48,752 bases of DNA from the NCBI RefSeq assembly GCF_000760295.1, contig NZ_JNBA01000021.1, forward strand, positions 1 to 48,752. The letters are read 5' to 3'. Origin of the DNA: Prochlorococcus sp. MIT 0701 (GTDB taxonomy: Bacteria > Cyanobacteriota > Cyanobacteriia > PCC-6307 > Cyanobiaceae). This document shows positions 1 to 48,752 of the stretch, piece after piece. The stretch's first letter is position 1; each line of letters starts with the position of its first letter. The position numbers and the translations under genes are program-made. The notes beneath the pieces are model-generated. The model worked only from the letters and a program-made list of their open reading frames with translations. It had not been told where the DNA came from and ran no database searches.

Positions 1-1498
1 TTGATCATCTCCAGCGCCACCAAGAAGAACATCATCATCGCTACCACCAAAGATCACTTCATCTGCAGACGTTCCAGTTAATGAATCCTTATCATCAGAA
101 CCAATGATTCTTGGATCTCTCAAGCTATCAGGAAGAACACTAAAGAATGATTTCGTGTAAAGCTCAATATCATTCCCATCACCACCTTCATAAGTCAAGA
201 AAAGATCAAGTTTTCCTCCCTTCTCACTTTTAAAGCGGCCTACAGAATCGCCTTCATTGAGGCCATCGTATTCACCAGCGAGATCTCCATCAACTTTGGC
301 AATCACAAAGGAATCACCAGCAGAAAGCTTAAAGCCATCAATCAGTGAAACATCGAGGTCTCCTGCAAGTTCTAGATCACCGGTAATTTCAATCCAGTCG
401 TGTTCTGTTGCGGTGCGATCGCCATCTCCGTGGTAAGTGCCGCCTAGTTCTATTTCTTTAGTACTGCCTTCCTTTTGATACAGGTTCCCGTCGATGAAAT
501 AACCACCGGAGGAACTGCCTGGGCTCAGAGCCCCGCCTTTGTCATTAATTATATTTCCTTCATGAGTCCCAGTGCCACTCAGAACACCTCCTTTTAAGTT
601 TGTAAATGTTCCTTTAGTGGTGTCAATATTGCCGTCGTTAACAAAGGCGCTGTAATTGCAAACTTTCCCTGCATTGATGAATTGGCAGCCAGAGAGCACT
701 TCAACTGTGTAAATATGGTTTTCAACAATTCCACCTTTGTTATTATAAAATGTTGAGTGATGGAGTGGCGATATAGTATCGTCAGCGGTACCGACCTCAA
801 GTACAGAAAACGAAGCATTCTCATGATTTATGTCTGGATTACCCAAGTTGATTGTCCCATAATTCTCGATAGTCGCGCCGTAACATAACCAATTTGCGCT
901 AGAATTAAAATTTACAGTTCCATTATTGATAAATTTGTCGTCATTATTCAAATAATTATCTTTTTCTCCAACAGTAATAGACGTCTCACCGTGTTCGAAA
1001 TCACCAATTGTCCCATCGTTTTGAAATTGACTTCCCATAGAAAGTTTTATCTCCCCTCCCAAGATAGTGCCATCTTTTTCATTTTTAGGCATTATACTTG
1101 GGTCATAATCACTACATTGAATAGATAAACTTTTAATAATACCGTGATTTAACAAACCTCCCACGCCAGAATATTCCTTAACAAAGTCTCCTCCATCAAT
1201 CAATCCCGAATTCGCGTTAATCAAAGCTGCCATAAGCTCAAATCCAACCCCGTCAATCTCTGTGCCAGAAATAGTGCCATTGTTGTATAATGTTCCCACC
1301 AAATTAATAGATGTATTCTCAATATGACCGTTATTTGTCAAGTCTTCTAGCGTAGAGTTATACGCCCAAATGCCTACATCTATTTCGGAGTCAATTATTG
1401 ATCCATTATTAGTATAGGAATTCATAGTCGCATCAATTTTTACGCTTTGCAGCGTGTTACCTTTTGGATTTGGGTTTGGGTAGTTCTGGTTAGCCATT
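1..1498 (-). CDS. RTX-type secreted surface protein, C-terminus beyond left edge
   Basis: The reading frame is open from an ATG at 1498 down to base 1, giving 499 residues with the C-terminus outside the window. There is no N-terminal signal peptide, as expected for type I secretion. The first 300 or so residues are rich in Asn, Gly, Ile and Thr, with repeated NNG-T-I patterns that suggest a beta-solenoid passenger. After an LSPG-type motif comes a block (GSTKEIELGGTY, DWIEITG, GDSFVIAKVDG, LTYEGGDGNDIELY) and then the start of RTX nonapeptides (FGGSDDDVLLGGAGDD). That C-terminal block is nearly identical to the protein at 2600-4366, while the N-terminal parts do not match. Function is unknown; an adhesive or surface role is inferred from the architecture. 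The region is AT-rich compared with the housekeeping genes. Confidence 0.8.
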
Positions 1499-1559
1499 TA
1501 CAAAAGATAGACTATTTACATGCTAGCCAAGAGTCACCTTCCTAGCCATAGGCTGACCA

Positions 1560-1904
1560 TTGAAAATTCATTATGATATAGATAGTACGTATACAGTCAA
1601 TTTTCTGCAAGATTCATGTCTGCTTATTATTCATTTTAATTTATCAATGAGTTGGGTCGGCTGGCTGAATGGTGATCGCAGCTGGATGTATGGGGTGAAT
1701 GCTGGCTATGACAGCCGGCCAATGAATACAGGCAATGCTGATGCTTTTATCAGGGACGCCAAATCTGTTAGTGATCGCCGTGATGTCTTCTTTCAGCAGG
1801 TTGCTCCATCTCTAGAAGCAGTCTCTGATAGCTGGAACTTCAATGACTATGGGCTCTTCCCGATTGGCGATACAGAACATGTTCTTAATGACCATTACCA
1901 CTGA
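1560..1904 (+). pseudogene. Fragment of inverse-autotransporter (intimin/invasin-type) beta-barrel
   Basis: About 80 residues, from SMSWVGWLNGDRSWMYGVNA to LFPIGDTEHVLNDHY, resemble the beginning of the inverse-autotransporter beta domain that anchors intimin/invasin-like proteins in the outer membrane. I recognise the style WLNGDRSWMYGVNAGYDSRP from cyanobacterial members. Intact barrels need some 250 residues; here the match stops abruptly near 1900 and the first 30 residues look unrelated. Its end overlaps the 3' end of the broken transposase at 1895-2437 by ten bases, so insertion or deletion at that point probably destroyed the gene. It is most likely a non-functional remnant. Recognition is by eye only. 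Confidence 0.5.
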
Positions 1905-2437
1905 ATATCACCATCTGTGATTCCATTTGCCCCGCGGAACTTCACAGCAACTTGATGCCAATCCTCAGGAATTTTATTGAGGCGAATATCCCAAGCCCAT
2001 GGCAATTGCTGTTGGCCTGGTGAAACCCTCTTCTTCTTGCTTCTAGTTCTTGCTCTGCTCACCAGTCGTTTGAGCATGCGACTACCCCAGTGGCACTTAG
2101 GAGCAGCTTTACTCTGATGGCGGTAGTGCTTACAGAAACGCTCATAGCGCCTGGAGCATCGATCAAGCGTTGTCGATAGCTTTAAAAAGGCTGCCTGCCA
2201 TTCATTGATGCCATCTGCTGTGAACCTGCTGTAGTGGCCAAATTTGCTATAGGGATCAAAGAATCCTTTCCTTACACCTGCTGCTTTGAGATTGGCATGG
2301 ATATATCTGAGCGTGTTCAACATTCGCCGGTGATCTTTGGGGTGGATCGGCGTTGAGAAGTATCTGCCCTCCCAGAAGTGCCCCAACGAGCACCAGGCAC
2401 TACCAAAAAGGGCGCTAACGAAGGCAACAGCAGGCAA
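1895..2437 (-). pseudogene. N-terminally truncated REP-associated (Y1/IS200-like) transposase
   Basis: The 180-residue frame contains GHFWEGRYFSTPIHPKDHRR, LNTLRYIHANLKAAGV, YSKFGHYSRF and a basic tail (RARTRSKKKR). This resembles the C-terminal half of REP-associated tyrosine transposases, which have the W-E-G-R-Y-F and R-Y-I-H-x-N blocks. The N-terminal part, which in this family carries the His-x-His metal-binding pair, is missing: the first 17 residues look unrelated and the frame begins inside the domain. The protein is therefore probably inactive. It lies between two RTX genes and abuts the inverse-autotransporter fragment. A perfect 10-bp hairpin lies about 110 bases beyond its 5' end. 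Confidence 0.6.
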
Positions 2438-2548
2438 TCAGAACGAACCCAGCGACGGCGAATGCATTAGCAAACATTCAACTCCGCAAGGGCCATGAGG
2501 CAAGAAATGATGCGCCCAGCTTGTCAGCAGATCAAGCGCTCAGCTAGA

Positions 2549-2579
2549 GCCATCAAGGCATCGTTTGAACCTTGATGGC
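2549..2579. repeat. Perfect 10-bp inverted repeat (hairpin)
   Basis: GCCATCAAGG at 2549-2558 pairs exactly with CCTTGATGGC at 2570-2579, leaving an 11-base loop. It lies just after the stop codon of the RTX gene at 2600-4366 (minus strand). There is no T-run after the stem on either strand, so it is not a classical intrinsic terminator. It could be an mRNA 3'-end structure or a REP-like element belonging to the neighbouring transposase remnant. Confidence 0.6.
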
Positions 2580-2599
2580 ATAACAACGGTTTCTATAGC

Positions 2600-4366
2600 T
2601 CAGATAAAGTCAATACAATCAGCAGCCAGGAACTCATCTTTATCGACATCCAGCAATGTGGTGTGAATAGCAATTCCTTTAATTAATAGATTATCACCAA
2701 CTTGCTGGAATGATAAGTAAACACCTTCTCCCACGACAAGCTGATCATTCTCATCGATTGAGAAAGACTCATAGATATCCTCTCCGCTACTGAGGATGTA
2801 ATCATCAGCGCCACGATCACCTTTAAGGGTGTCATCTCCTAAGCCACCATCGAGCGTGTCATTACCATTGCCTCCAGTGACTTGATCATCTCCACCGCCT
2901 CCTAGCAAAATATCATCATCGCTACCACCAAAGATCACTTCATCTGCAGACGTTCCAGTTAATGAATCCTTATCATCAGAACCAATGATTCTTGGATCTC
3001 TCAAGCTATCAGGGAGAACACCAAAGAAAGACTTGGTATAAAGCTCAATATCATTCCCATCACCACCTTCATAAGTCAAGAAAAGATCAAGTTTTCCTCC
3101 CTTCTCACTTTTAAAACGGCCTACTGAGTCTCCTTCTTTGAGGCCATCATAATGACCAGTGAGATCTCCATCAACTTTGGCAATCACAAAGGAATCACCA
3201 GCAGAAAGCTTAAAGCCATCAATCAGTGAAACATCAAGGTTTCCTGCGAGTTCTAGGTTGCCAGTAATTTCAATCCAATCGTGTTCTGTAGCGGTGCGAT
3301 CGCCATCGCCGTGATAAGTGCCGCCTAGTTCTATTTCTTTAGTACTGCCTTGCTTTTGATACAAGTTACCATTAATCAAATGACCACCTGCTGAATTGCC
3401 CGGGCTTAATGTACCAGGAGTTATTACATCACCTATTATCAAACCAGTGCCACTAAGGGTCCCATTGTTAGTGAATGTTCCACCAATGGTAAGTATATTT
3501 CCATTGTTGACGATATTAGCACCTTTATTGTTAGTCAAAACTCCACCTTTTGAATAATCATCTACTCCGCTTGAGTTGTCAAAAGTTGCATTTGATTCGA
3601 TTGTTAGAGTTGACTGATTACAGTTGAAAAATTCACCCCCGTCTCCTGGAGTTGCCCCATTTTGGTTATTATATTCCCCCTTTGATTCAATAGTAACTTT
3701 TGCTGCATACTGAGTTCCAGTACTATCCTTCTGGCCGTTGTAAAAGGTTTCTATTGAACTGATTTTACCCGAGCCAATAATACTGCCATAATTGTAAAAA
3801 AGTTGCTGGCCATTGATAGATCCCGAGTATAATATTTTTGACGAATTATAGCATATACCTGCCAAGTCAATCGTAGCGTCCTTTGATTCCGTGGTCCATT
3901 TTTTACTGGTCAATGCACCACCAATTGTCATTTCCTTTGCGTCCCAAAAGTCCAGCTTGCCATAATTATTGGTTATCCCTAAAGTTATATCTGCATCGAT
4001 TCCCCCCGTAAAAGTTCCCCAGTTGTTAATCTGGCTGCTCTCATCGCAAAAAAGCTTTCCATTAGTGAAAAAAGTTGCATCAAAATTATGAGTATCTTCG
4101 CCTGCATTAGATATATAACCACCTCGCAGGACATTGATCGTACCTCTTATTTTTCCTTGGTCTGCGAAAGTTGCTCCTGGTTTGTTTAAAAATTTCCCTC
4201 CATCGGCTACATTAAAAGTAGCTGAGCTTGAAGTCGTGGCGTTTTCCAAATCACCAGTATTTGTCAATACACCCGAACGGCTGATTGTATAGTTTAAATT
4301 ATTTTCTCCTCCATTGATTGTAAGGCTATCAAGTAAGAGTTGGCTCGCTGGTGGGATCTGAGTCAT
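2600..4366 (-). CDS. RTX-type calcium-binding secreted surface protein
   Basis: This 588-residue protein has no signal peptide. Residues from about 1 to 320 form an Asn/Gly/Thr-rich passenger with repeated FTNNGTLSGTG-like units, as in beta-solenoid autotransporter passengers. Residues from about 320 to 450 (LSPGNSAGG, GSTKEIELGGTY, DWIEITGNLELAG, GDSFVIAKVDG) form a conserved module. Residues from about 465 to 530 carry RTX nonapeptides (FGGSDDDILLGGGGDD, GGNGNDTLDGGLGDDTLKG), which bind calcium and mark type I secretion substrates. The last 50 residues are probably the secretion signal. The C-terminal module is shared almost residue for residue with the gene ending at the left edge. No secretion genes are visible nearby. 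The role is unknown; a surface-layer or adhesive function is inferred. Confidence 0.85.
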   Translation of the reverse strand: MTQIPPASQLLLDSLTINGGENNLNYTISRSGVLTNTGDLENATTSSSATFNVADGGKFLNKPGATFADQGKIRGTINVLRGGYISNAGEDTHNFDATFFTNGKLFCDESSQINNWGTFTGGIDADITLGITNNYGKLDFWDAKEMTIGGALTSKKWTTESKDATIDLAGICYNSSKILYSGSINGQQLFYNYGSIIGSGKISSIETFYNGQKDSTGTQYAAKVTIESKGEYNNQNGATPGDGGEFFNCNQSTLTIESNATFDNSSGVDDYSKGGVLTNNKGANIVNNGNILTIGGTFTNNGTLSGTGLIIGDVITPGTLSPGNSAGGHLINGNLYQKQGSTKEIELGGTYHGDGDRTATEHDWIEITGNLELAGNLDVSLIDGFKLSAGDSFVIAKVDGDLTGHYDGLKEGDSVGRFKSEKGGKLDLFLTYEGGDGNDIELYTKSFFGVLPDSLRDPRIIGSDDKDSLTGTSADEVIFGGSDDDILLGGGGDDQVTGGNGNDTLDGGLGDDTLKGDRGADDYILSSGEDIYESFSIDENDQLVVGEGVYLSFQQVGDNLLIKGIAIHTTLLDVDKDEFLAADCIDFI

Positions 4367-39547: not shown

Positions 39548-39636
39548 TTTAAAGGCTGAATAGAAAATCAAATCAAAAGCAAACCCAATTAGCAATCAGC
39601 CTGGGTAGGCTCAGTTTGGCTTTCTCTACCTGCCAG

Positions 39637-40110
39637 ATGTTGCGCTCGGCACTTTCCACACTTCACAGCAACCTGCCGGCCTCTTTGGTCCAGGCTCACT
39701 GTGATGGCCCTTGCGGCGTTTACGATCCCGCCTCGGCAAGAGTCTCAGCTGAAGCCGTCGTATCGATGACCAAAAAGCTGCTCGAACTGCAGCCTCCCTC
39801 AGGGAACGATCCGGCTGCTTGGGCGGCTTACAACAACACCTTCTCCCGCTTCGTCGCCATCAAGGAAGAACAAGCTCAGCAAACCAAGAACGAGCTACTG
39901 ATCCTCTGGACGGATTATTTCAAGCCAGAGCATCTGGCAACTTTCCCGAATCTGCATGACATCTTCTGGAAAGCGGCCAAGCTATGCAGCGCCTGCAAGG
40001 TCAACATCGATCAATCCAAGGCAGATGAACTGATCAAAGCTGTGGAAGCCATTCACACGATGTTCTGGAAATCCAAGGGTCGTAATGACGCCTGGGTGAG
40101 AGCCAGTTAA
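39637..40110 (+). CDS. sodN: Nickel superoxide dismutase precursor
   Basis: SodN dismutates superoxide with a nickel centre. The mature N-terminus is HCDGPCGVYDPASARVSAEA: His1, Cys2 and Cys6 form the nickel hook. It follows a 20-residue prosequence (ATG 39637) that must be removed. The remaining helical domain is typical (AYNNTFSRFVAIKEEQAQQT, LLILWTDYFKPEHL, KAVEAIHTMFWKSKGR). The mature protein has 137 residues. The frame continues upstream to TTG 39616, but the ATG start fits the known precursor length better. sodX follows 10 bases downstream. Confidence 0.96.
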   Translation: MLRSALSTLHSNLPASLVQAHCDGPCGVYDPASARVSAEAVVSMTKKLLELQPPSGNDPAAWAAYNNTFSRFVAIKEEQAQQTKNELLILWTDYFKPEHLATFPNLHDIFWKAAKLCSACKVNIDQSKADELIKAVEAIHTMFWKSKGRNDAWVRAS

Positions 40111-40120
40111 GCCAACAAGC

Positions 40121-40477
40121 ATGATGCCAACAGCGAACTGGCGTTCGCTGTTCCTGCTGCTTTCAGGTCTTCGTCGCCATGCTCGTGTCGATGGAGACTC
40201 AATGAGCCCCAGCCTTGCCCCTGGCGACCTGGTGATCTTTCAACCGATCACCAGCGATGACAAGCAGCTCAAGCCTGGTTGTGTTGTGGTTGTCCGTCAT
40301 CCGTTGCAACCAGCAACCCTGCTGATCAAACGCCTGATTGCAATCAACAATTCCGGGCTGGAACTACGCGGTGACAACGAGCACGCAAGCACAGACAGCC
40401 GGCATTTCGGTTTGGTGAATCGCGACAACCTGCTTGGCATCGCTGAATGCGTATGGCGTGTTCCCTTCAGCGCATAA
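40121..40477 (+). CDS. sodX: Nickel SOD maturation protease (S26-like)
   Basis: SodX is a small signal-peptidase-like protein thought to cleave the SodN prosequence so nickel can bind. The 118-residue protein has the S26 motifs: RVDGDSMSPSLAPGDLVIFQ with the catalytic serine, then LLIKRLIAI with the general-base lysine, and ELRGDNEHASTDSRHFGLV. It is shorter than true signal peptidases and lacks a clear membrane anchor. It sits directly behind sodN, as in other genomes. Confidence 0.93.
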   Translation: MMPTANWRSLFLLLSGLRRHARVDGDSMSPSLAPGDLVIFQPITSDDKQLKPGCVVVVRHPLQPATLLIKRLIAINNSGLELRGDNEHASTDSRHFGLVNRDNLLGIAECVWRVPFSA

Positions 40478-40497
40478 GTGCCCAGCAAATTAGGCAA

Positions 40498-41178
40498 TCA
40501 AAGAAGCTGAGGGGATGTTTTCTGCAACCAAAAGAAGCCCGTGATGATCGATAGCCCACCGGTTGATCCCACCAGGAAGGGCAAGGCACGACGCCCCACT
40601 CGCAATGTGGCTAATGAAATCGCACAAACAACCGCGACCATCGCTGCTATGGAACCGAACAGATAAGCCGCCATATAGATCAAAGCCCCGAGAGGAGGCA
40701 AGGCCAGCGCGGGAATAACTGCAAGCAGATGGCTGGCCCCAGCCAAGCCATGAAGGAGACCAAGACTGGTTGCTGCATGAGCATGTCGCCCGTGCTTGTG
40801 TCGCCCTCGCAGATGCAGGTGCACATGTTGATGGTCATGGGCGTGACCATAGTTTTGCTGATGCGTGTGCTGATGGGTGTGGATATCCAGGCCAAGAGCA
40901 GTACGAATCGCCATCGCTCCAACCACAAGCAACGCCACTCCCACGCAGAATTCGGCCCAGGAGGACATGCGCTCGATATGGACGAGGTCTTTCAAAACAA
41001 TGGCAATGGTTGAAAGAACCAGAACACCTGTTGAATGGCCGACCCCCCAAGCAAGGCCACTGCGTAATGCCATAGCCGGCTTACGCAAGGCACTGGGTGC
41101 GATGGCAACAAGATGATCAGCACCACCCACCACATGAAGGGCTCCAGCAGCGAAGCCCGTGAGGATGCTGATCAGCAT
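40498..41178 (-). CDS. Nickel transporter (UreH/NiCoT-like) with histidine-rich loop
   Basis: About six membrane helices, with HVVGGADHLVAIAPSA near the N-terminus, GVGHSTGVLVLS and LLHGLAGASHLLAVIP, resembling nickel/cobalt permeases. A cytoplasmic or periplasmic loop (residues about 100-134) has 14 histidines within 35 residues, as in metal-binding loops. ATG 41178 gives 226 residues; the upstream frame to 41253 adds a segment without hydrophobic character. It is convergent with sodX, and this position supports a role in supplying nickel to SodN; a transporter next to sodN-sodX is known in marine bacteria. Confidence 0.85.
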   Translation of the reverse strand: MLISILTGFAAGALHVVGGADHLVAIAPSALRKPAMALRSGLAWGVGHSTGVLVLSTIAIVLKDLVHIERMSSWAEFCVGVALLVVGAMAIRTALGLDIHTHQHTHQQNYGHAHDHQHVHLHLRGRHKHGRHAHAATSLGLLHGLAGASHLLAVIPALALPPLGALIYMAAYLFGSIAAMVAVVCAISLATLRVGRRALPFLVGSTGGLSIITGFFWLQKTSPQLL

Positions 41179-41292
41179 GAATTCGAAACAGTCACGAAGA
41201 AGTCTGGCGGATTGAGGGTGGAATTGCGCTGATGCTACTGCTGAACGGATCAAACCCTGAAACCGTCATCAGCAGTAAGCCCGCCTCAAGGA

Positions 41293-43581
41293 TCAGTTCA
41301 CTAATTGTTCTTGGGGGAGAGCAGCAAGGAAGTCAACAAAACAGTCGCTTACCTCTTGATCAGCAAATAAGCGCTGCGAACGCTCGTTGATCAGAGCTCT
41401 CATCTGATTGGCGAAGTCGTCGTCTTCAAGCAAGCGCACAGAGATCTCCACATACTCTTCTCTTGAAGAAGCAATCAGCTCAGGCAACTCAAGAACCTCG
41501 AGCATCGCCAATGTGTGTCGGCCGCGCATAAAAGCTGTTGGCATCGAAACAACAGGACAACCCCTAGAGAATGCTTGAAATGAGCTATTGCCACCATTCC
41601 AATCAATCGTGTCTAGAGAATGATGAGCGATATCAAAAAACGCCACATAATCGGCGTACTCAAGCCGATGTAAAAAGCGAAGGTGCTGATCCGCATCAAG
41701 GCCTACATCAGCAAAGCGAATCTTGAGACGGTGATAGAGACGATCGGAAACGGAGGGATGACCCATATGAGCGACAAACAGAATTAAGGCATCCGGGAAG
41801 CGGCGGCAGATCTCAACAAACGTGCAATCGTTGCGTGGATGATATTTAAACGTGCTCTGCAGACTCAACAGCAAAGGACGATCTGCTGGAAGCTCAAAAC
41901 GGCTACGAAGGTCATCGCCTTGATGCACACTCAGTGGCACTGGATAATTCAGACCAGTACGAGGTAGTAACACCAATCGCTCGCTGTAGTGAGAGGCGGC
42001 ATCAGCCGATTCCATTCCCGCGCCACTGAGGTAGTAATCAATACATTCCGATCCCGTCGTGATCGGATGCCCCCAACCAACAGCCTGATAACGGGCCAAG
42101 CGAACACTGGCCGCGATACGACTAGCAGGATGCATCCCAACATCTGGAATCAATAGAAAATCCAGATCATCAGCACGGATCTGTTGCACAACTGCTTCGG
42201 CAGTTTCTGGTGTTAACGACAATTTGCGGTAACAACCAAGAGCAGCAAATCGCTGGGAAACTTCATCCTCATCGTCACCTAGATTGTAGGCATAAACATC
42301 ATAAGCAGGGTTATCGCGCAGAGGGTCCAACCAACCAAGCGCCCAGAATGTGCCATTGTGATTGCGTAGGTGAGGTGAAAGAACACCTACACGTAAAGGC
42401 TTTGAGCCATCGCCTTGATGAGGCTCAAGGGGAAGCATGTATGACGCGAGCCTGGGTTTAAGAATGCGTTTAAAAATCTCTGCAAGCTTGATCTGAAGAG
42501 GAAGATCATCCTCCATCTGATAAGACAGATAAAAGCTCGTTAATCCCCAACAATGGGAATAGATATCCTCGTAAACGGGATCGTCTTGGCTGAAGCCATC
42601 AAGCTGATCTAACAGTAAATCAAGAACATCATTATAACGAGATCTCCACTGATTAACGTCGTGCTCCGATTCATAAACAATCGGCAAGATATAAAGACTA
42701 ACCATCGTCTGTAAGCGTTTGTCTTCAAGACTTTCTGCAAACGCAAAGGCTTGTTGATGGAGGCCAAGTTCCAAATAACAACTCATCAAGCCTTGAATGC
42801 CTGTTGCCCGTTGCATAGGGTCAATCGGAAGCTCAAGAAACTTCTCAAACTCCTCAATAGCTAAGTCATGTTTTTTGACAGTGACCAGTGCCTGAGCAAG
42901 GTTTTGGCGGCAATGATCCGAAGACGCATCTGCAGTCAGTCCTAAACGATAAGTCGCGATGGCCTTCTCTTTCTGATCTAAGCCCGCAAGACATAGGCCA
43001 AGATTATTTAAGGCATCTGGATAAGCTGGCTGAACCTGCAGACAAAGACGGTAAGCCTCGCAAGCTTCTGGAAGGCGATTGAAATGGCGCAGTAGGTTGC
43101 CCAAAGCAAACGATGCTTTGTAATAATCAGGAACGTCAACAAGCAAGTTGCGCATACACTCTTCGGCCTGCGCATATTGTTCATATTCATACAATGCCAA
43201 GGCATAATTATGTCGACATTCAACAAATTCAGGATCGATCTTCAAGGCAGCTTGATAAGCCTCTAATGCCAAATCATATGAATTGATTGCACGCAGTGAA
43301 TTGGCGCGATTAAAGATAACAAATTTAGATAGAAAGTCTTGCTTTTCGGCCAAATCGAAACAGTCAAGTGCCTGTTGATGAAAACCTAAAATATGAGAAG
43401 AAAGGCCAAGCAGATAAGCCTCCTCCCCATTCAGAGATTGCAGTGCACAAAGCGATAGCTCATCATAAACTGTCTGAGCCTGACCTTCGAGAAGAAACTG
43501 GTAAAAATGATCAAGCCCAGCACTTGGCTGATTATGAGCAGACCAACCAACAGGGACCTCAGCGAGGGGCATCAGAAGCAA
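41293..43581 (-). CDS. TPR-containing GT41-family (O-GlcNAc transferase-like) glycosyltransferase
   Basis: The 762-residue protein has a TPR superhelix (about residues 50-300; YDLALEAYQAALKIDPEFVE, CEAYRLCLQVQPAYPDALNN, KAIATYRLGLTADASS) and a C-terminal GT41 domain. The latter starts at LRVGVLSPHLRNHNGTFWAL and has FLLIPDVGMHPASRI, AVGWGHPITTGSECIDYYLS, LLLSLQSTFKYHPRNDCTFV and LDTIDWNGGNSSFQAFSRGC followed by PVVSMP. GT41 enzymes transfer a sugar from a nucleotide sugar to proteins. No signal peptide, so it acts in the cytoplasm. A giant repeat adhesin lies 1.6 kb away. Confidence 0.88.
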   Translation of the reverse strand: MLLMPLAEVPVGWSAHNQPSAGLDHFYQFLLEGQAQTVYDELSLCALQSLNGEEAYLLGLSSHILGFHQQALDCFDLAEKQDFLSKFVIFNRANSLRAINSYDLALEAYQAALKIDPEFVECRHNYALALYEYEQYAQAEECMRNLLVDVPDYYKASFALGNLLRHFNRLPEACEAYRLCLQVQPAYPDALNNLGLCLAGLDQKEKAIATYRLGLTADASSDHCRQNLAQALVTVKKHDLAIEEFEKFLELPIDPMQRATGIQGLMSCYLELGLHQQAFAFAESLEDKRLQTMVSLYILPIVYESEHDVNQWRSRYNDVLDLLLDQLDGFSQDDPVYEDIYSHCWGLTSFYLSYQMEDDLPLQIKLAEIFKRILKPRLASYMLPLEPHQGDGSKPLRVGVLSPHLRNHNGTFWALGWLDPLRDNPAYDVYAYNLGDDEDEVSQRFAALGCYRKLSLTPETAEAVVQQIRADDLDFLLIPDVGMHPASRIAASVRLARYQAVGWGHPITTGSECIDYYLSGAGMESADAASHYSERLVLLPRTGLNYPVPLSVHQGDDLRSRFELPADRPLLLSLQSTFKYHPRNDCTFVEICRRFPDALILFVAHMGHPSVSDRLYHRLKIRFADVGLDADQHLRFLHRLEYADYVAFFDIAHHSLDTIDWNGGNSSFQAFSRGCPVVSMPTAFMRGRHTLAMLEVLELPELIASSREEYVEISVRLLEDDDFANQMRALINERSQRLFADQEVSDCFVDFLAALPQEQLVN

Positions 43582-43791
43582 GGTTTAACAACTCAAGGAT
43601 ACTGGAAGTAAGCCACAGGCTGCATGATGAAAAGAACAAGAGCCCTGATGGAAAAAGCCAGGTAAATACTCAGGGCAAAAAAGGTGATCAATTGATCAGA
43701 ATCGCTAGCATTAGCAATGCTTCAAGAACAGGCGAATAAGACTCATGCTAGCCTCTACCCCAAAAGATCAATCCCACACTAAGGCTAAAGT

Positions 43792-44241
43792 ATGTCAAGC
43801 AAATCTACATTTACAGCGCTAGCACTTACAACCCTTCTCATTCCAATCAATAGTGCCCATGCAGCAAAGATTAAAGGTGGGGAGATGATCACACAGACAC
43901 GCCCTTTGAGCAGCATTGGCTCAACAACAATTGGACTCGCTGAATTCAGAGACTTGAGAGATGTGACCACCTTGAATTTATGCTATTCGTTATCGCAGAA
44001 AGTCGATTACCAACCAGTAGCTACAGCATCAGTAGCTGCGATGACAAAGCTGATCACTGAACGCTACAAAGGGAAAGTGAGCGGCATGCCTGCGACTGCG
44101 AACACAGCCAAAGGCTTAAAGAATTGGATTGCAGGCAACATTCTCGTCAGAGCCTCATCGGTTTGTCCGAAAAATCTGCCAGCGACAGAACTTGAAGTCG
44201 CCGAAAAAATCAAACAAGCCTCGAAGAAAATCTCCCAATAG
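43792..44241 (+). CDS. Small secreted protein of unknown function
   Basis: The 149-residue protein has a clear signal peptide (residues 1-24, TALALTTLLIPINSAHA) and a mature part with two cysteines (in LNLCYSLSQ and SVCPKNLP), suggesting a periplasmic disulfide. It contains GSTTIGLAEFRDLRDVTTLN and TAKGLKNWIAGNILVRASSV. No family is recognised. It is alone between the divergent glycosyltransferase and the adhesin remnant. Confidence 0.65.
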   Translation: MSSKSTFTALALTTLLIPINSAHAAKIKGGEMITQTRPLSSIGSTTIGLAEFRDLRDVTTLNLCYSLSQKVDYQPVATASVAAMTKLITERYKGKVSGMPATANTAKGLKNWIAGNILVRASSVCPKNLPATELEVAEKIKQASKKISQ

Positions 44242-44432
44242 CAAGCCTGCACTAAATAGACTGAGCAGTAATTAAGGCGGCAACTTTCCTAATAAGGCTA
44301 ATAGGGGGGCAACCAACTAACCACTCTTCTTATCTTTCTAGACAGCAAAATAATAATACATTCAATCCTAAACAACACAAAAGTCAAGCCAGGATTGCTA
44401 ACAAAAGCCATTTAAGAGAAACCACGCCATAA

Positions 44433-44618
44433 ACAAACGAAGCACGCCAGGATCGCCAGGAAGCTCGTGATGAATTGAAAGAGCAGCGGCTGATCCTCAA
44501 ATCACAACAGGCTCAAATCAACATCTTGCTGCGCAAAATCAACAGCCCAATCGCTGAAGGGAAAGAGGAAAAGATTTCAGCAGTCGCTCGTCCTGTTGCT
44601 ATTGATCAGCAGCCCTAG
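44433..44618 (+). pseudogene. Coiled-coil C-terminal remnant, possibly of an adhesin or fibre protein
   Basis: A 61-codon open stretch without start codon reads EARQDRQEARDELKEQRLIL, then KSQQAQINILLRKINSP, and ends at TAG 44618. The heptad-like pattern is that of a coiled coil at the end of a trimeric adhesin or a fibre with an autocleaving C-terminus. It lies 590 bases before the giant YadA-like gene on the same strand, so it may be the tail of a deleted sister copy. Similarity judged by eye. Confidence 0.4.
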
Positions 44619-45209
44619 GCAAGCGAGTTCTAGGCAGAGAGTTGTCAGACAGGCCCGATCATTCAGGCGTTCTCTTCATCCAGCAAAATCGATACCAATC
44701 AGCTGATCCGGCCGGGAAAACTAGAAGGAAAAACTGAACGCATGCAGGCAGCAGGACAAAACCAACAGGCCTAAAGCAACACATCAGTTGATGCCTACTT
44801 CCTCGCTACAACAAGGCAAAGCAAACATCTCTGAGCACAATGCTGGCAGATTTCAAGACACCCCTAAATTGCTCTACCTAGCTTGCATTGAAAACAACAA
44901 GGCCAGTTAGTACAGCCCTACGACAGACAGCTAAAGCAGAACATTGCTATCACGATCAAAGAAAAGCTGGATCTATTGAATGCATACACTTCAACGGCAG
45001 AACATCCCGAACAGCTCCAGCCAATCTTCAGTATCACAGTTTTATGCTAATAGCAATTACAATTAGACAACGTGAAAAGGATGGCTGGGTGATGGGATAT
45101 GCATGCACAAGTACAAACATCCTACAAACAGTCAATAGAAATGGAATAGTGATTAATCATGCTATTTTTGAGGGTCACTATTCGCTTTTCGCAATCAAGA
45201 GGAACAAGG
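44619..45209. other. Intergenic region before the giant adhesin gene
   Basis: This 590-base AT-rich stretch has no recognisable gene. A 112-codon frame at 44888-45226 has an unnatural composition and runs into the start of the adhesin gene in another frame. The promoter of the adhesin is presumably near 45150-45200, but I see no definite -10/-35 pair. Confidence 0.5.
45197..45203 (+). promoter_or_regulatory. Ribosome binding site fixing the adhesin start
   Basis: AAGAGGA lies six bases before ATG 45210. This supports that ATG rather than the later in-frame methionine (45273), which would leave only a short N-region before the hydrophobic segment. Confidence 0.6.
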
Positions 45210-48200
45210 ATGAGCGGCAATTGTGATCACAAGCAGAAGGATCCCAAGGGTCAACATGGCTCAACCCATGAGATGCCGCAAGAGAAGGCCTCACTCAATA
45301 ATATTCTGACCACTCTTAGGCCAGCATTCCTACTGAAAAATGCAGGTTTTTTATTACTTCTCTTTTCCTGCAATCCAGCTGCTGCTCAAGTGTATGGAAT
45401 GTGTGGCACTGGCGAAGCTGAAATCGCAGGAAAAACCACTTTTGAAGAATTCACCCTTAAAGGGACTCAATCCAACGAGCTAGAAGTAAACACAACTGTA
45501 AACGTAACTGTAGATGTAGAAGTTGAAACAGCTGAAGAAGGAGCGGTTGAGGCGGTTGGTGAAGGTATAGGGGTTGTGACTGTCGAAGGAGCAGAAGAAG
45601 GAACAGGGGAAGGGGGAGGAACAGGGGAAGGAACAGGAACAGGAAAAGGGACTGCAAAAACAGATCTCGCTGGAATTATCACAGGTCCAGGTGGCCCTTT
45701 CAGCATTTCCACAGGGGTTGATGGAACCGAACCTGTTGTCATGGCGAAGTGTGGCAGTGGTGACGGCTACGCAACTCTTGGTGGATTTTCAGGAATGGGG
45801 GCGGTTGCTGTTGGCCCCGCTGAAGCAACTGGAGGTGGAAGCATTGCCGTGGGCGACAAAGCGCTTACGAGTGAGGATGCTGAATTTGCGATTGCTTTAG
45901 GAGCAGAAGCGAAAGGATTAGCCTCAGGCAGTGTTGCGATAGGAGTGAAAGCAAAAACTTACCTAGATGCTATTGGCGGAGTTGCTATTGGAACTGACTC
46001 AAAAGCTGGTGGTGTATCAAGTCTCGCTTTAGGTGATTCTGCAGCATCCGGGGGAGCAGGCAGTCTTGCTCTTGGCTTAGATGCTGTTACAGCAACTAGT
46101 GCAGCAAGTGCCCTTGCTATCGGTTCGGGTTCATACGCTGGAGGAACTGCAGGAATTGCCCTAGGCCTGAAATCATCAGCAATGGGAGCAGAAAGTATCG
46201 CTATTGGCTCTAACGCAAAAATAATTGATCCAGAATCGATAGGCAGCATGGCTCTTGGCAGCGACATCTCCATTACTGGCCCTCATTCGGTTGGAATTGG
46301 AGAAAACATGTATATCAACGGAGAAAACGTATTTGCTTCGGGCTATGGAATCAGTAATTCAAAAGGTGATTTCAACCTGATTGAAGGCAACAATAATCAC
46401 AATTGGGAAGGCAATCAAAACATCTTATCAGGTAACAACGTGAACAACGTTGCTGGAAGCAACAATATGCTTCAGGGCAACACAGTTACAAATACATCAG
46501 GCAATAGCAACATGCTTCAGGGCAACACAGTCACAAATACATCAGGTGATAAAAATATCTTAATGGGAAATAACGTGACAAACACTATTGGAAGCAACAA
46601 CCTAATTATGGGAAATGATATTCTCAATGTAGGCAGCTATAACGTACTTCTAGGCAACGCAGTCGGCTCTGGAGGCGCAATGAATGTCGCCATTGGCAAT
46701 CTTGCTGTTGTTGGAGCCACAACAACATCCATTGCTATTGGCAATTTAGCTGCAGTCGGTGAGGGCGCATCAGGTGCGATCGCCATGGGGAATGGTGCGG
46801 GTGTTGGAGTTGAGGCAGCTGGCAGCATCGCTATTGGCAATGGTGCAGGTGCAACTCTAGGTAAAAATCAAATTGCGATGGGCAACAATGTTGCTGTTGT
46901 AGGTGATTCAACTATTGCAATTGGCGACAACTCAAACTCAACTAAAGATGGCGCAATAAGTATCGGGGCCTATACCAAAGCAAGTGGCAAAGATGCATTG
47001 GCGATGGTAAGCGCATCAGCAAGTGGAGATAACTCCATTGCAATTGGCTCAGAAGATGCAAAAGCAGAAGGAGAAAGTGCAATTGCCTTAGGTAAAGCAG
47101 CTGCATCGACTGCAAATGAAGCGATTGCTATTGGCGCTGAAGCAAGTGCAAGCGCATCAGAGACAATTGCTCTCGGTGCTGGCGCAAATGCAAGCGCATC
47201 AGAAGCCATGGCGATCGGCACCGGAGCAGAAGCTACAGGCTCAGATGCTATTGCCCTTGGAACACGATCATCATCACAAGCGTCTGGATCTATCGCCATT
47301 GGCGAATATGCAACAGTCGAGGCATTAACAGAAAGCGATGCAGACCCTGATGATGCAATTGCCATCGGTGCATTATCAAGAGCTGCCGCGCCAGATACCA
47401 TTGCTCTTGGCGCAAGTTCCAATGCATCGGCCAATGGGGCGATTGCTCTAGGCAGTCTCGCCAATGCATCCGGTGCAAACGCAATCGCGATTGGATACGA
47501 CAGCGCAGCCAGTTACGCCAATTCATTCGTGCTTGGCACGAAAGCCGTCGCAAAAGGTGTCAATGCTGGCGCGATTGGCACGAAGGCTCAAACCACAGGC
47601 ACTGATGCCATGGCTGTTGGTGTTGGCGCCACTGCCAGTAACACAAGCTCCTTTGCTCTTGGCACTGGTGCAACATCTTCTGGCATTGATTCAGCTGCTT
47701 TTGGTGTTGACGCCACCGCGAGCGGCACCAATGCCATTGCCGTTGGTACCAATTCCATCTCAAGCGGCACCAATGCTCTCGCTTTTGGTGCTGGTGCTCT
47801 CGCCGATCAACCCAACTCCTTTGTTGTTGGTGCTGCTGCGCAAGCCTGTGGCGTCAATGCTGGTGCTCTTGGTGCTGCTGCCAATGCCTATGGAGCCAAT
47901 TCCATCGCTATTGGCGTTAAATCACAGGCCAATGGCGTCAATGCCACTGCGGTTGGCGTAGAGGCCTATGCCAAAGAAGCAGGCGCCATGGCCCTTGGCA
48001 CCAATGCGCAAGCCATTGGTACAAGCACCACCGCTGTTGGCATTAATTCCATCGCCACCGGCGCTAACAGTCTTGCCGCTGGTGCTGGCGCCAATGCCTA
48101 CGGTACCAATTCCACCGCCTTAGCCTTCCAAGCCAATGCCCAAGGAACCAATGCTGTTGCCCTTGGCGTACAAGCAAGCGCCACTGGCACCAGTGCCATG

Positions 48201-48752
48201 GCTTTTGGCACCCTCTCACAAGCCACAGACACCAATGCCACAGCGGTAGCACCAGGTGCCATTGCCAACGGTGCTAATTCCATCGCCATTGGCGTGATCT
48301 CCAAAGCCAGTGGCCAAAACGCTCAAGCCTTTGGTGTTAATGCCAATGCATCAGGCGTCAATGCCGTTGCTATCGCCAGCAGCTCCAATGCCCAAGGCGA
48401 TGATGCCATGGCCATCGGCGTTCTCTCCAAATCATCTGGCACCAATGCCATTGCCTTTGGCACCAATGCCAATGCCTCCGCTAATGGCGCCATGGCCTTT
48501 GGCTCAGCTGCCAATGCCTCAGGTGATGGCGCCATGGCCTTTGGTTCAGCTGCTAATGCCTCAGCTACAGACAGCATGGCGATTGGTGTCAATGCTGTCG
48601 CCAGTGCCAGCAACACCACCGCCGTTGGTCAATCCGCTCGCGCTACAAGTGCCAATGCCATGGCTCTTGGTCTCTTCTCCGAGGCCTCCGGTGATGTGGC
48701 TGTCGCCATCGGTATGAATGCTGCAGCACTCAGCTCCGACACCCTCGCAGCG
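45210..48752 (+). CDS. Giant YadA-head-like repeat adhesin, C-terminus beyond right edge
   Basis: The frame is open from ATG 45210 to the window end (1181 residues). A 42-residue polar N-terminus precedes a hydrophobic signal (NAGFLLLLFSCNPAAAQ), resembling the extended signal regions of large surface proteins. Residues 90-150 are a low-complexity Val/Thr/Glu/Gly segment. From about 198 on, 14-residue motifs of the type S-x-A-I-G-x-x-A-x-A-x-G-x-N repeat dozens of times, the left-handed beta-roll of YadA-type trimeric adhesins. Residues about 388-480 are an Asn-rich variant of about 16 residues. Ala and Gly codon use changes near 47.4 kb from GCA/GGA to GCC/GGC. Anchoring domain not seen. Confidence 0.85.
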   Translation, partial: MSGNCDHKQKDPKGQHGSTHEMPQEKASLNNILTTLRPAFLLKNAGFLLLLFSCNPAAAQVYGMCGTGEAEIAGKTTFEEFTLKGTQSNELEVNTTVNVTVDVEVETAEEGAVEAVGEGIGVVTVEGAEEGTGEGGGTGEGTGTGKGTAKTDLAGIITGPGGPFSISTGVDGTEPVVMAKCGSGDGYATLGGFSGMGAVAVGPAEATGGGSIAVGDKALTSEDAEFAIALGAEAKGLASGSVAIGVKAKTYLDAIGGVAIGTDSKAGGVSSLALGDSAASGGAGSLALGLDAVTATSAASALAIGSGSYAGGTAGIALGLKSSAMGAESIAIGSNAKIIDPESIGSMALGSDISITGPHSVGIGENMYINGENVFASGYGISNSKGDFNLIEGNNNHNWEGNQNILSGNNVNNVAGSNNMLQGNTVTNTSGNSNMLQGNTVTNTSGDKNILMGNNVTNTIGSNNLIMGNDILNVGSYNVLLGNAVGSGGAMNVAIGNLAVVGATTTSIAIGNLAAVGEGASGAIAMGNGAGVGVEAAGSIAIGNGAGATLGKNQIAMGNNVAVVGDSTIAIGDNSNSTKDGAISIGAYTKASGKDALAMVSASASGDNSIAIGSEDAKAEGESAIALGKAAASTANEAIAIGAEASASASETIALGAGANASASEAMAIGTGAEATGSDAIALGTRSSSQASGSIAIGEYATVEALTESDADPDDAIAIGALSRAAAPDTIALGASSNASANGAIALGSLANASGANAIAIGYDSAASYANSFVLGTKAVAKGVNAGAIGTKAQTTGTDAMAVGVGATASNTSSFALGTGATSSGIDSAAFGVDATASGTNAIAVGTNSISSGTNALAFGAGALADQPNSFVVGAAAQACGVNAGALGAAANAYGANSIAIGVKSQANGVNATAVGVEAYAKEAGAMALGTNAQAIGTSTTAVGINSIATGANSLAAGAGANAYGTNSTALAFQANAQGTNAVALGVQASATGTSAMAFGTLSQATDTNATAVAPGAIANGANSIAIGVISKASGQNAQAFGVNANASGVNAVAIASSSNAQGDDAMAIGVLSKSSGTNAIAFGTNANASANGAMAFGSAANASGDGAMAFGSAANASATDSMAIGVNAVASASNTTAVGQSARATSANAMALGLFSEASGDVAVAIGMNAAALSSDTLAA
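46374..46650. repeat. Asn-rich 16-residue repeats inside the adhesin
   Basis: At least five consecutive units of the form SNNMLQGNTVTNTSGN are encoded here. Two neighbouring units are almost identical in DNA (CTTCAGGGCAACACAGT in both, then ACAAATACATCAGG). The pattern has Asn ladders every few residues and differs from the Ala/Gly head repeats on each side. It looks like a distinct solenoid module. Confidence 0.75.

Follow-up and report, generated by a model that had tools for sequence, protein, structure and literature searches.

The window analysed here, a stretch of 48,752 nucleotides considered at its full length, ends with two divergently oriented genes. On the reverse strand, positions 41293–43572 encode a predicted TPR-GT41 protein glycosyltransferase of 759 aa from an ATG at 43572, upstream of which the reading frame stays open to a TTG at 43581. 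The gene is intact, with about eight TPR helix pairs and a GT41 domain (Pfam Glyco_transf_41, 68.9 bits for a cut-off of 25); the TPR helices span residues ~24–298 and the GT-B domain residues ~396–740 (P0001 numbering), and no N-terminal sulfotransferase domain was found in this protein. On the forward strand, positions 45210–48752 (alternative start at 45159) hold the 5′ part of a YadA-head adhesin of the trimeric-autotransporter type (Pfam, 242.2 bits). An earlier note on this DNA had described a GT41 glycosyltransferase near a giant adhesin: the transferase gene is indeed present, and the adhesin is a YadA-head protein with an incomplete reading frame, cut where the contig ends (48752). 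Its 3′ tail lies on another contig (C13, L104:3-479), at the contig edge and beside trpC; this 159-aa tail gave no YadA_anchor match, and the anchor region of this genome corresponds to an assembly gap. In relatives, YadA_anchor was found in 9/9 of the C-termini scanned and in both adhesins of Synechococcus sp. RCC307, with adhesin ORFs of up to 4803 aa.

The two genes are separated by about 1.6 kb, as previously noted, with a 149-aa ORF (43792–44241, forward strand) bearing a signal-peptide-like N-terminus, as judged by eye, and an adhesin-tail remnant lying between them. This remnant (44433–44618, forward strand, 61 codons plus stop) is the coiled-coil-like C-terminus of an adhesin copy in decayed form; it shares 60% identity over 57 aa with the tail on C13 and also matches the adhesin tail of a scar found in two congeners (G002 and G003, see below). 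The 149-aa ORF matched no family in Pfam or NCBIfam, and BLAST paired it with none of the relatives' ORFs that were collected. Its involvement in a glycosylation system is doubtful, and its candidacy as the counterpart of a conserved small secreted protein (cluster 3) was rejected, no match being found there. Neither RNA families nor tRNAs were detected in the window, in which GC content is 45–50% at 42–48 kb and 50–57% in most of the remainder, the first 4 kb excepted.

Within the GT41 family, several lines of comparison place the transferase as a putative OGT/SPINDLY-type TPR-GT41 enzyme, nearer to OGT and SPINDLY than to NGT. The profile of its catalytic domain scored 82.6 bits with TtOGT, 73.5 with SPINDLY, ~69–72 with human OGT and 67–68 with XcOGT, against 43–46 bits with HMW1C/NGT, and the NCBIfam equivalog model for NGT (NF049992) gave 42.3 bits on the protein, not approaching its cut-off of 1000. 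Residue K579, invariant in 13/13 of the transferases collected, aligned with K665 of SPINDLY and position 341 of TtOGT, the site of the K341M mutant named in a PDB title; we take SPINDLY K665 and TtOGT K341 to be the catalytic lysine, of which K579 would be the equivalent. The AF2 model was confident for the TPR part and of low confidence for the catalytic part, and its Foldseek matches, used for ranking only in view of the poor catalytic part and of TMq values of 0.25–0.41 in full-length GT41 rows, were headed by SPINDLY and OGT. OGT and SPINDLY are the best matches of the transferase in both sequence and fold. These protein O-GlcNAc and O-fucosyl transferases, whose targets are intracellular and regulatory, share with it the TPR-then-GT41 order and the conserved catalytic lysine, but the cyanobacterial enzyme differs in being genetically linked to a giant surface adhesin. 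Judged from its sequence, it looks like a Ser/Thr-glycosylating type and not an asparagine-glycosylating one. A similar layout is described for FlmG of Caulobacter crescentus, a soluble O-glycosyltransferase with a substrate-binding N-terminal TPR domain and a C-terminal GT-B domain, which also acts on an exported surface protein; it differs by its substrate, flagellin, and its donor, pseudaminic acid (PMC7591256).

An HMW1C-like mechanism, raised in the earlier note, would have the enzyme glucosylate asparagines of N-x-S/T sites (sequons), said there to be abundant in the adhesin. The HMW1C homologue of Kingella kingae is an N-linked NGT devoid of TPRs. This GT41 enzyme modifies Knh, a trimeric autotransporter of the YadA type with YadA-like heads, and both the surface amount of Knh and adherence require it (PMC9592894), which lends this reading some weight. 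Unlike it, the cyanobacterial transferase is OGT/SPINDLY-like, TPR-bearing, adjacent to its adhesin and, in most relatives, fused to a sulfotransferase. Haemophilus provides a related system, the HMW1 adhesin and its dedicated GT41 enzyme HMW1C being encoded side by side (PMC5303269), although HMW1 is a two-partner-secretion adhesin (PMC3983070), whereas in relatives of the window lineage the adhesin has a built-in YadA anchor, and the transferase scores nearer another GT41 branch; enzymes such as that of Kingella, termed ‘orphan’, are encoded at a distance from the adhesin (PMC5303269). HMW1C and the window transferase share one GT41 Pfam family, and NGT/HMW1C structures do match the transferase profile, at bit scores exceeded by those of OGT and SPINDLY. 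The sequons themselves gave contrasted results. In the 984-aa head region of the window adhesin, their density (1.63 per 100 residues) equals that of composition-preserving shuffles (1.63, z = 0.0), and the claimed richness is not borne out. GT-adjacent adhesins of other genomes (11 ORFs) contain 2.1–4.95 sequons per 100 aa, with an excess over shuffles (z ≥ 2.5) in 10/11, these z values being inflated by repeats that the shuffles ignore; ORFs with fewer than six head motifs were excluded from the count, which dropped G078 and G422. Three adhesin ORFs of GT-bearing genomes that are not adjacent to the transferase are enriched as well (z 6.7–7.7), but so are two adhesin ORFs (z 6.5 and 4.1) of G349, a genome 70% complete in which no transferase was found. 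Membership of the transferase in the HMW1C/NGT group was rejected on the model score, the profile ranking and the sequons, and with the N-terminal TPRs typical of OGT, SPINDLY and FlmG and the Foldseek ranking also pointing elsewhere, we regard asparagine glycosylation of the adhesin as improbable.

The link between the two genes is supported. Co-occurrence in other genomes, which the earlier note had suggested checking, was surveyed in part of the family, a sample of 400 genomes that counts the window's own and comes from a larger group, with thresholds of E ≤ 1e-60 for transferase orthologues and E ≤ 1e-6 for YadA-head adhesins. An orthologue was detected in 13 genomes, an adhesin in 22 and both in 12, i.e. 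a YadA head in 12/13 genomes with the transferase versus 10/387 without it (hypergeometric P = 2.8e-16, relatedness ignored). In 11 of the 12 genomes with both, distributed over seven genera, the genes are divergent neighbours at most ~2.2 kb apart, the distance between ORF ends being 66–430 bp in eight genomes and 1.3–2.1 kb in G028, G033 and the window. Furthermore, the congeners G002 and G003 display one scar beside trpC in which only 3′ pieces of the transferase and of the adhesin are left, indicating joint loss. The pairing of the two genes is real. One scan of the genome-contig collection returned two relatives.

This association is not absolute. A transferase orthologue is missing from ten of the 22 genomes with a YadA head, and such adhesins can consequently exist without the enzyme, while G293 carries the transferase family as three tandem copies that lack the sulfotransferase block, and not even at E 0.01 did this genome yield a YadA head. 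The adhesin of G219 is located ~10 kb from the transferase, and in both this genome and the window the usual partner adhesin type was absent at the thresholds used, which counts against a dedicated transferase. The enzyme might accordingly target pilin or other surface or cytoplasmic proteins, the adhesin being its neighbour through a shared mobile or hypervariable cell-surface island, as the lower GC (45–50%) at 42–48 kb of the window and the proximity of distant transferase relatives to a type IV pilin-like gene at one (L110) of five loci inspected would also allow. However, a divergent pair conserved with gaps of 66–430 bp in eight genomes, together with the joint loss, exceeds what island membership would lead us to expect, and we consider this explanation rather unlikely.

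In most relatives, the locus carries additional functions. A carbohydrate-sulfotransferase domain (Sulfotransfer_2, 50.6–81.1 bits for a cut-off of 22) precedes the TPRs in 11/13 transferases, G293 having TPRs in its place; a second sulfotransferase-like gene follows the transferase in 7/13 genomes, and a conserved protein of no assigned family (cluster 2) often follows it. Cluster 2 had no relative in the PDB (best E 0.7), and one of the two members scanned gave weak Pfam hints below cut-off (DUF707, 12.7 bits; Glycos_transf_2, 11.5 bits); a fold predicted by AF2 from one sequence (pLDDT 39) was set aside. The term ‘sulfotransferase’ does not appear in the main text of the FlmG paper (PMC7591256). 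The window transferase itself has no such domain and neither follow-on gene lies beside it, which counts against the reading favoured below. A hidden sulfotransferase remnant upstream was sought by tblastn, with the complete transferases of RCC307 and CH-040 as queries against 43561–45210, and discarded (no match at E ≤ 1), matches of cluster-4 and cluster-2 proteins in the same interval (E 0.27 and 0.33) were taken as chance, and a search of the window's genome for cluster 2, run without a positive control of its own, gave none at E ≤ 0.001. The sulfotransferases, a UDP-galactopyranose mutase in G299 (GLF, 181.7 bits), a similar G317 ORF assigned by BLAST clustering and a protein with a weak methyltransferase match (15 bits for a cut-off of 26.3), all of which occur in part of the clusters, could also suggest the synthesis of a sulphated surface polysaccharide, with the adhesin merely co-regulated or polysaccharide-binding. 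Yet the window lineage retains the transferase without any such gene at its side and, to our knowledge, all characterised GT41 enzymes with TPRs are protein glycosyltransferases, making this a very unlikely option. FlmG is such an enzyme (PMC7591256).

We propose, with a probability of roughly two in three, that the transferase works in the cytoplasm, guided by its TPRs, as a protein glycosyltransferase dedicated to picocyanobacterial YadA-type adhesins, with a linkage that is probably of the O type. Its TPR superhelix would hold the freshly made adhesin ahead of export, while the GT41 catalytic domain would add a sugar to many passenger side chains, most likely Ser/Thr; the adhesin would then pass through Sec and insert into the outer membrane by its own YadA anchor. 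In most relatives the sugar would probably be sulphated, as suggested by the sulfotransferase domain in the same polypeptide and by the follow-on sulfotransferase-like and cluster 2 proteins, the window lineage having retained the bare transferase alone. More tentatively, and at clearly less than even odds, these elements could compose a picocyanobacterial sulfo-glycosylation system for giant trimeric autotransporters, in which a sulfotransferase-TPR-GT41 polypeptide glycosylates the adhesin and also sulphates the added sugar before export, assisted by the second sulfotransferase and the partner protein, with a stripped version in the window lineage and congeners that lost enzyme and adhesin together. 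In the literature consulted, glycosylation of trimeric autotransporters concerns pathogens and N-linking enzymes; if true, our proposal would bring adhesin glycosylation into another branch of GT41 and into phototrophs, which are exposed to grazers, particles and phages. The transferase, adhesin, sulfotransferase and cluster-2-type partner genes are all present in Synechococcus sp. RCC307, a gene set that makes the idea directly testable.

The window is the whole of contig C21 (48752 bases), one of 53 contigs of a 2.59-Mb genome rated 99.98% complete. Its intact glycosyltransferase, built of TPRs and a Glyco_transf_41 domain (hereafter GT; 41293-43572, minus strand; 68.9 bits), is neighboured by a YadA-head adhesin that runs from position 45210 (alternatively 45159) to the window end (YadA head, 242.2 bits). 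Between the two lie an orphan 149-aa ORF and the decayed remnant of an adhesin tail, 60% identical over 57 aa to a 159-residue adhesin tail at the extreme start of contig C13, adjoining trpC. The adhesin ORF is interrupted by the end of C21, and synteny with Synechococcus sp. RCC307, which like Cyanobium sp. CH-040 belongs to the same family and whose trpC query is assigned to IGPS by its Pfam match (303 bits), suggests that its 3' tail lies on C13 next to trpC. We thus infer that C21 and C13 adjoin through the adhesin gene.

Screening 400 genomes of the family, own genome included (GT at E<=1e-60, YadA head at E<=1e-6), recovered GT in 13, a YadA head in 22 and both in 12 (hypergeometric P = 2.8e-16, relatives being counted as if independent). 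The co-occurrence that an earlier note had named as a check on its proposal of adhesin glycosylation was therefore found in 12 of the 13 GT genomes. These 13 are spread over 7 of 59 genera, some of which also hold GT-less members (g1, g5, g10 and g57). In the single exception, G293, which carries the GT family, no YadA head was detected even at E 0.01. Conversely, ten YadA-head genomes have no GT orthologue; among them are G349, whose genome is 70% complete, and G397 and G405, where matches to the GT query are confined to the TPR part. A first sample of 60 relatives including the own genome had given the same three genomes for both genes: the YadA head (E<=0.001) occurred only in the own genome, RCC307 and CH-040, also the only ones within the family part of that sample with full-length GT orthologues (51% identity in RCC307, 50% in CH-040). 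Many genomes of other cyanobacterial families in this sample have GT relatives at about 25-35% identity, and none of these 23 genomes has a YadA head.

The association extends to gene order. In neighbourhoods fetched for all 13 GT genomes (the window serving for the own genome), GT and the adhesin are divergent neighbours in 11 of the 12 genomes that have both, at distances between longest-ORF ends of 99 bp (G071), 175 bp (G090), 430 bp (G144), 246 bp (G169), 192 bp (G235), 66 bp (G261) and 373 bp (G299 and G317), rising to 1.3 kb in RCC307, with an AraC-type regulator inside, 1.6 kb in the window and 2.1 kb in CH-040, with a histidine-kinase-like ORF inside; in G219 the adhesin lies ~10 kb from GT. 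By eye, the GT-adjacent adhesins of other genomes share a basic N-terminus that is absent from the window adhesin, whose best match among the queried adhesins is that of G219 (57% over 1146 aa; 52% over the 297 N-terminal aa), so that the window genome and G219 combine GT with an adhesin of a different type. In 8 of 13 genomes GT is accompanied by a small secreted protein (cluster 3, e.g. L079:19672-19995) with conserved cysteines and, for the one member scanned, no Pfam family. Of the 11 pairs, 7 have its gene immediately after that of the GT-adjacent adhesin; in G219 it adjoins GT, and in G249 it neighbours an adhesin that has no GT.

Both genes have also been lost together. Two congeners, G002 and G003, align at 91-92% with window 40001-41581, which reaches the 3' part of GT, and at 94-95% with C13 from base 277, i.e. 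the adhesin tail end followed by trpC; an extra 84-bp GT piece (79-82%) lies between these blocks, and consecutive blocks are separated by no more than about 5 bp. The window adhesin remnant has its own match (54-71 bp), which falls on this adhesin-tail segment and so adds no piece to the scar. With no YadA head in either congener (at E<=0.001), this contiguous scar holding the 3' ends of both genes indicates their removal from one place, counted as one event since the scar is common to both genomes.

The earlier note had further proposed that GT may be an HMW1C-like enzyme N-glycosylating N-x-S/T sites in which the adhesin is rich. This richness was not recovered in the window, where the head region has 1.63 sequons per 100 aa, the level of shuffled sequences. 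N-linkage nevertheless draws some support from relatives: 11 GT-adjacent adhesin ORFs of other genomes contain 2.1-4.95 per 100 aa (z 0.9 to 11.5, at least 2.5 in 10 of 11), and seven further non-adjacent ORFs of GT-bearing genomes reach z 0.0 to 7.7, z being inflated throughout this comparison because shuffling ignores repeats. In 12 adhesin ORFs of eight GT-less genomes, densities span 0.35 to 3.83 per 100, with 9 of 12 within z 1.5 and higher values in G349 (6.5, 4.1) and G095 (2.2). Against N-linkage, GT homology is nearer to the O-linking OGT/SPINDLY branch. A catalytic-domain profile built from the 13 GT sequences scores TtOGT at 82.6, SPINDLY at 73.5, human OGT at about 69-72 and XcOGT at 67-68 bits, versus 43-46 bits for HMW1C/NGT, and the NCBIfam NGT model gives the window GT 42.3 bits for a cut-off of 1000. 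Foldseek of the AF2 model, weak in its catalytic part, ranks SPINDLY and OGT first (TMq 0.25-0.41), with no HMW1C among the best 50 rows. Moreover, K579, invariant in 13 of 13 GTs, aligns with SPINDLY K665 and with the residue mutated in the TtOGT K341M entry. N-linkage by GT is thus unsupported for the window adhesin and disfavoured by homology, but may still occur in the relatives.

Most likely, by analogy with two systems, GT would modify the adhesin in the cytoplasm, and the modified adhesin would then be exported by Sec. The TPR domain of the Caulobacter O-glycosyltransferase FlmG binds flagellin, and its GT-B domain carries out the modification of this protein in the cytoplasm (PMC7591256), and glycosylation of Kingella Knh, a YadA-headed autotransporter, by an HMW1C homologue is required for its surface amount and adherence (PMC9592894). 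The linkage, sugar and sulphation of the adhesin are matters on which we can only infer. Among the matches listed in open-licence literature on YadA/trimeric autotransporters, HMW1C, cyanobacteria, RCC307, FlmG and sulfotransferases, no title describes the GT-adhesin pairing, which is no proof of novelty.

A Sulfotransfer_2 domain opens 11 of the 13 GTs (50.6-81.1 bits, cut-off 22). It is absent from the N-terminus of the window GT and replaced by TPRs in that of G293, where three long TPR-GT41 proteins stand in tandem (L082:7530-18903) with no YadA adhesin, the first, which was the one scanned, having no sulfotransferase block. Downstream of GT are found a cluster 4 protein in 7 of 13 genomes, six of whose seven members pass the Sulfotransfer_2 cut-off (the one in G090 reaches 20.8 against 22), and a cluster 2 protein of no assigned function in 9 of 13; the three genes are tightly packed head to tail in RCC307. 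Less frequent are a Sulfotransfer_3 protein (cluster 5; four genomes, one member scanned), a UDP-galactopyranose mutase (cluster 23; two genomes, one member scanned) and a protein with weak resemblance to methyltransferases (cluster 14; two genomes). The own genome has no cluster 2 protein; its Sulfotransfer_2 matches over cut-off are on C24 and C27, away from the GT locus, with one below cut-off on C25.

YadA_anchor was detected in 9 of 9 adhesin C-termini scanned from relatives and in both RCC307 adhesins. The C13 tail, scanned as tenth query, has none; the anchor of the window genome's adhesin would lie within the assembly gap between contigs. Beyond the anchor, 128-169 residues, coiled-coil-like by eye, follow in 11 of 11 cases (L057, L056, L059, L072, L073, L074, L077, L079, L084, L086 and L097). 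As known YadA-type proteins terminate at the barrel, this segment looks like a periplasmic extension. Adhesin genes spread over two or three overlapping frames in L056:11109-17129 (RCC307, beside trpC) and L074:1785-7707 (G144) point to frameshifts within repeats, reflecting decay, phase variation or sequencing error.

Elsewhere, a distant cyanobacterium carries three tandem GT relatives (L110:7273-19072) in the vicinity of a TPR-like ORF and of a gene resembling those of type IV pilins (Pilin_GH, 95.1 bits), an arrangement seen in 1 of 5 loci looked at. In the window, two low-GC ORFs at 1-4366 have RTX calcium-binding repeats (21.3 bits, just below the cut-off of 23, for the first, which is cut by the contig edge; 32 bits for the second), and 39616-41253 encodes nickel SOD, the protease that matures it and, next to them, a membrane protein rich in His that, by eye, is a possible nickel transporter.
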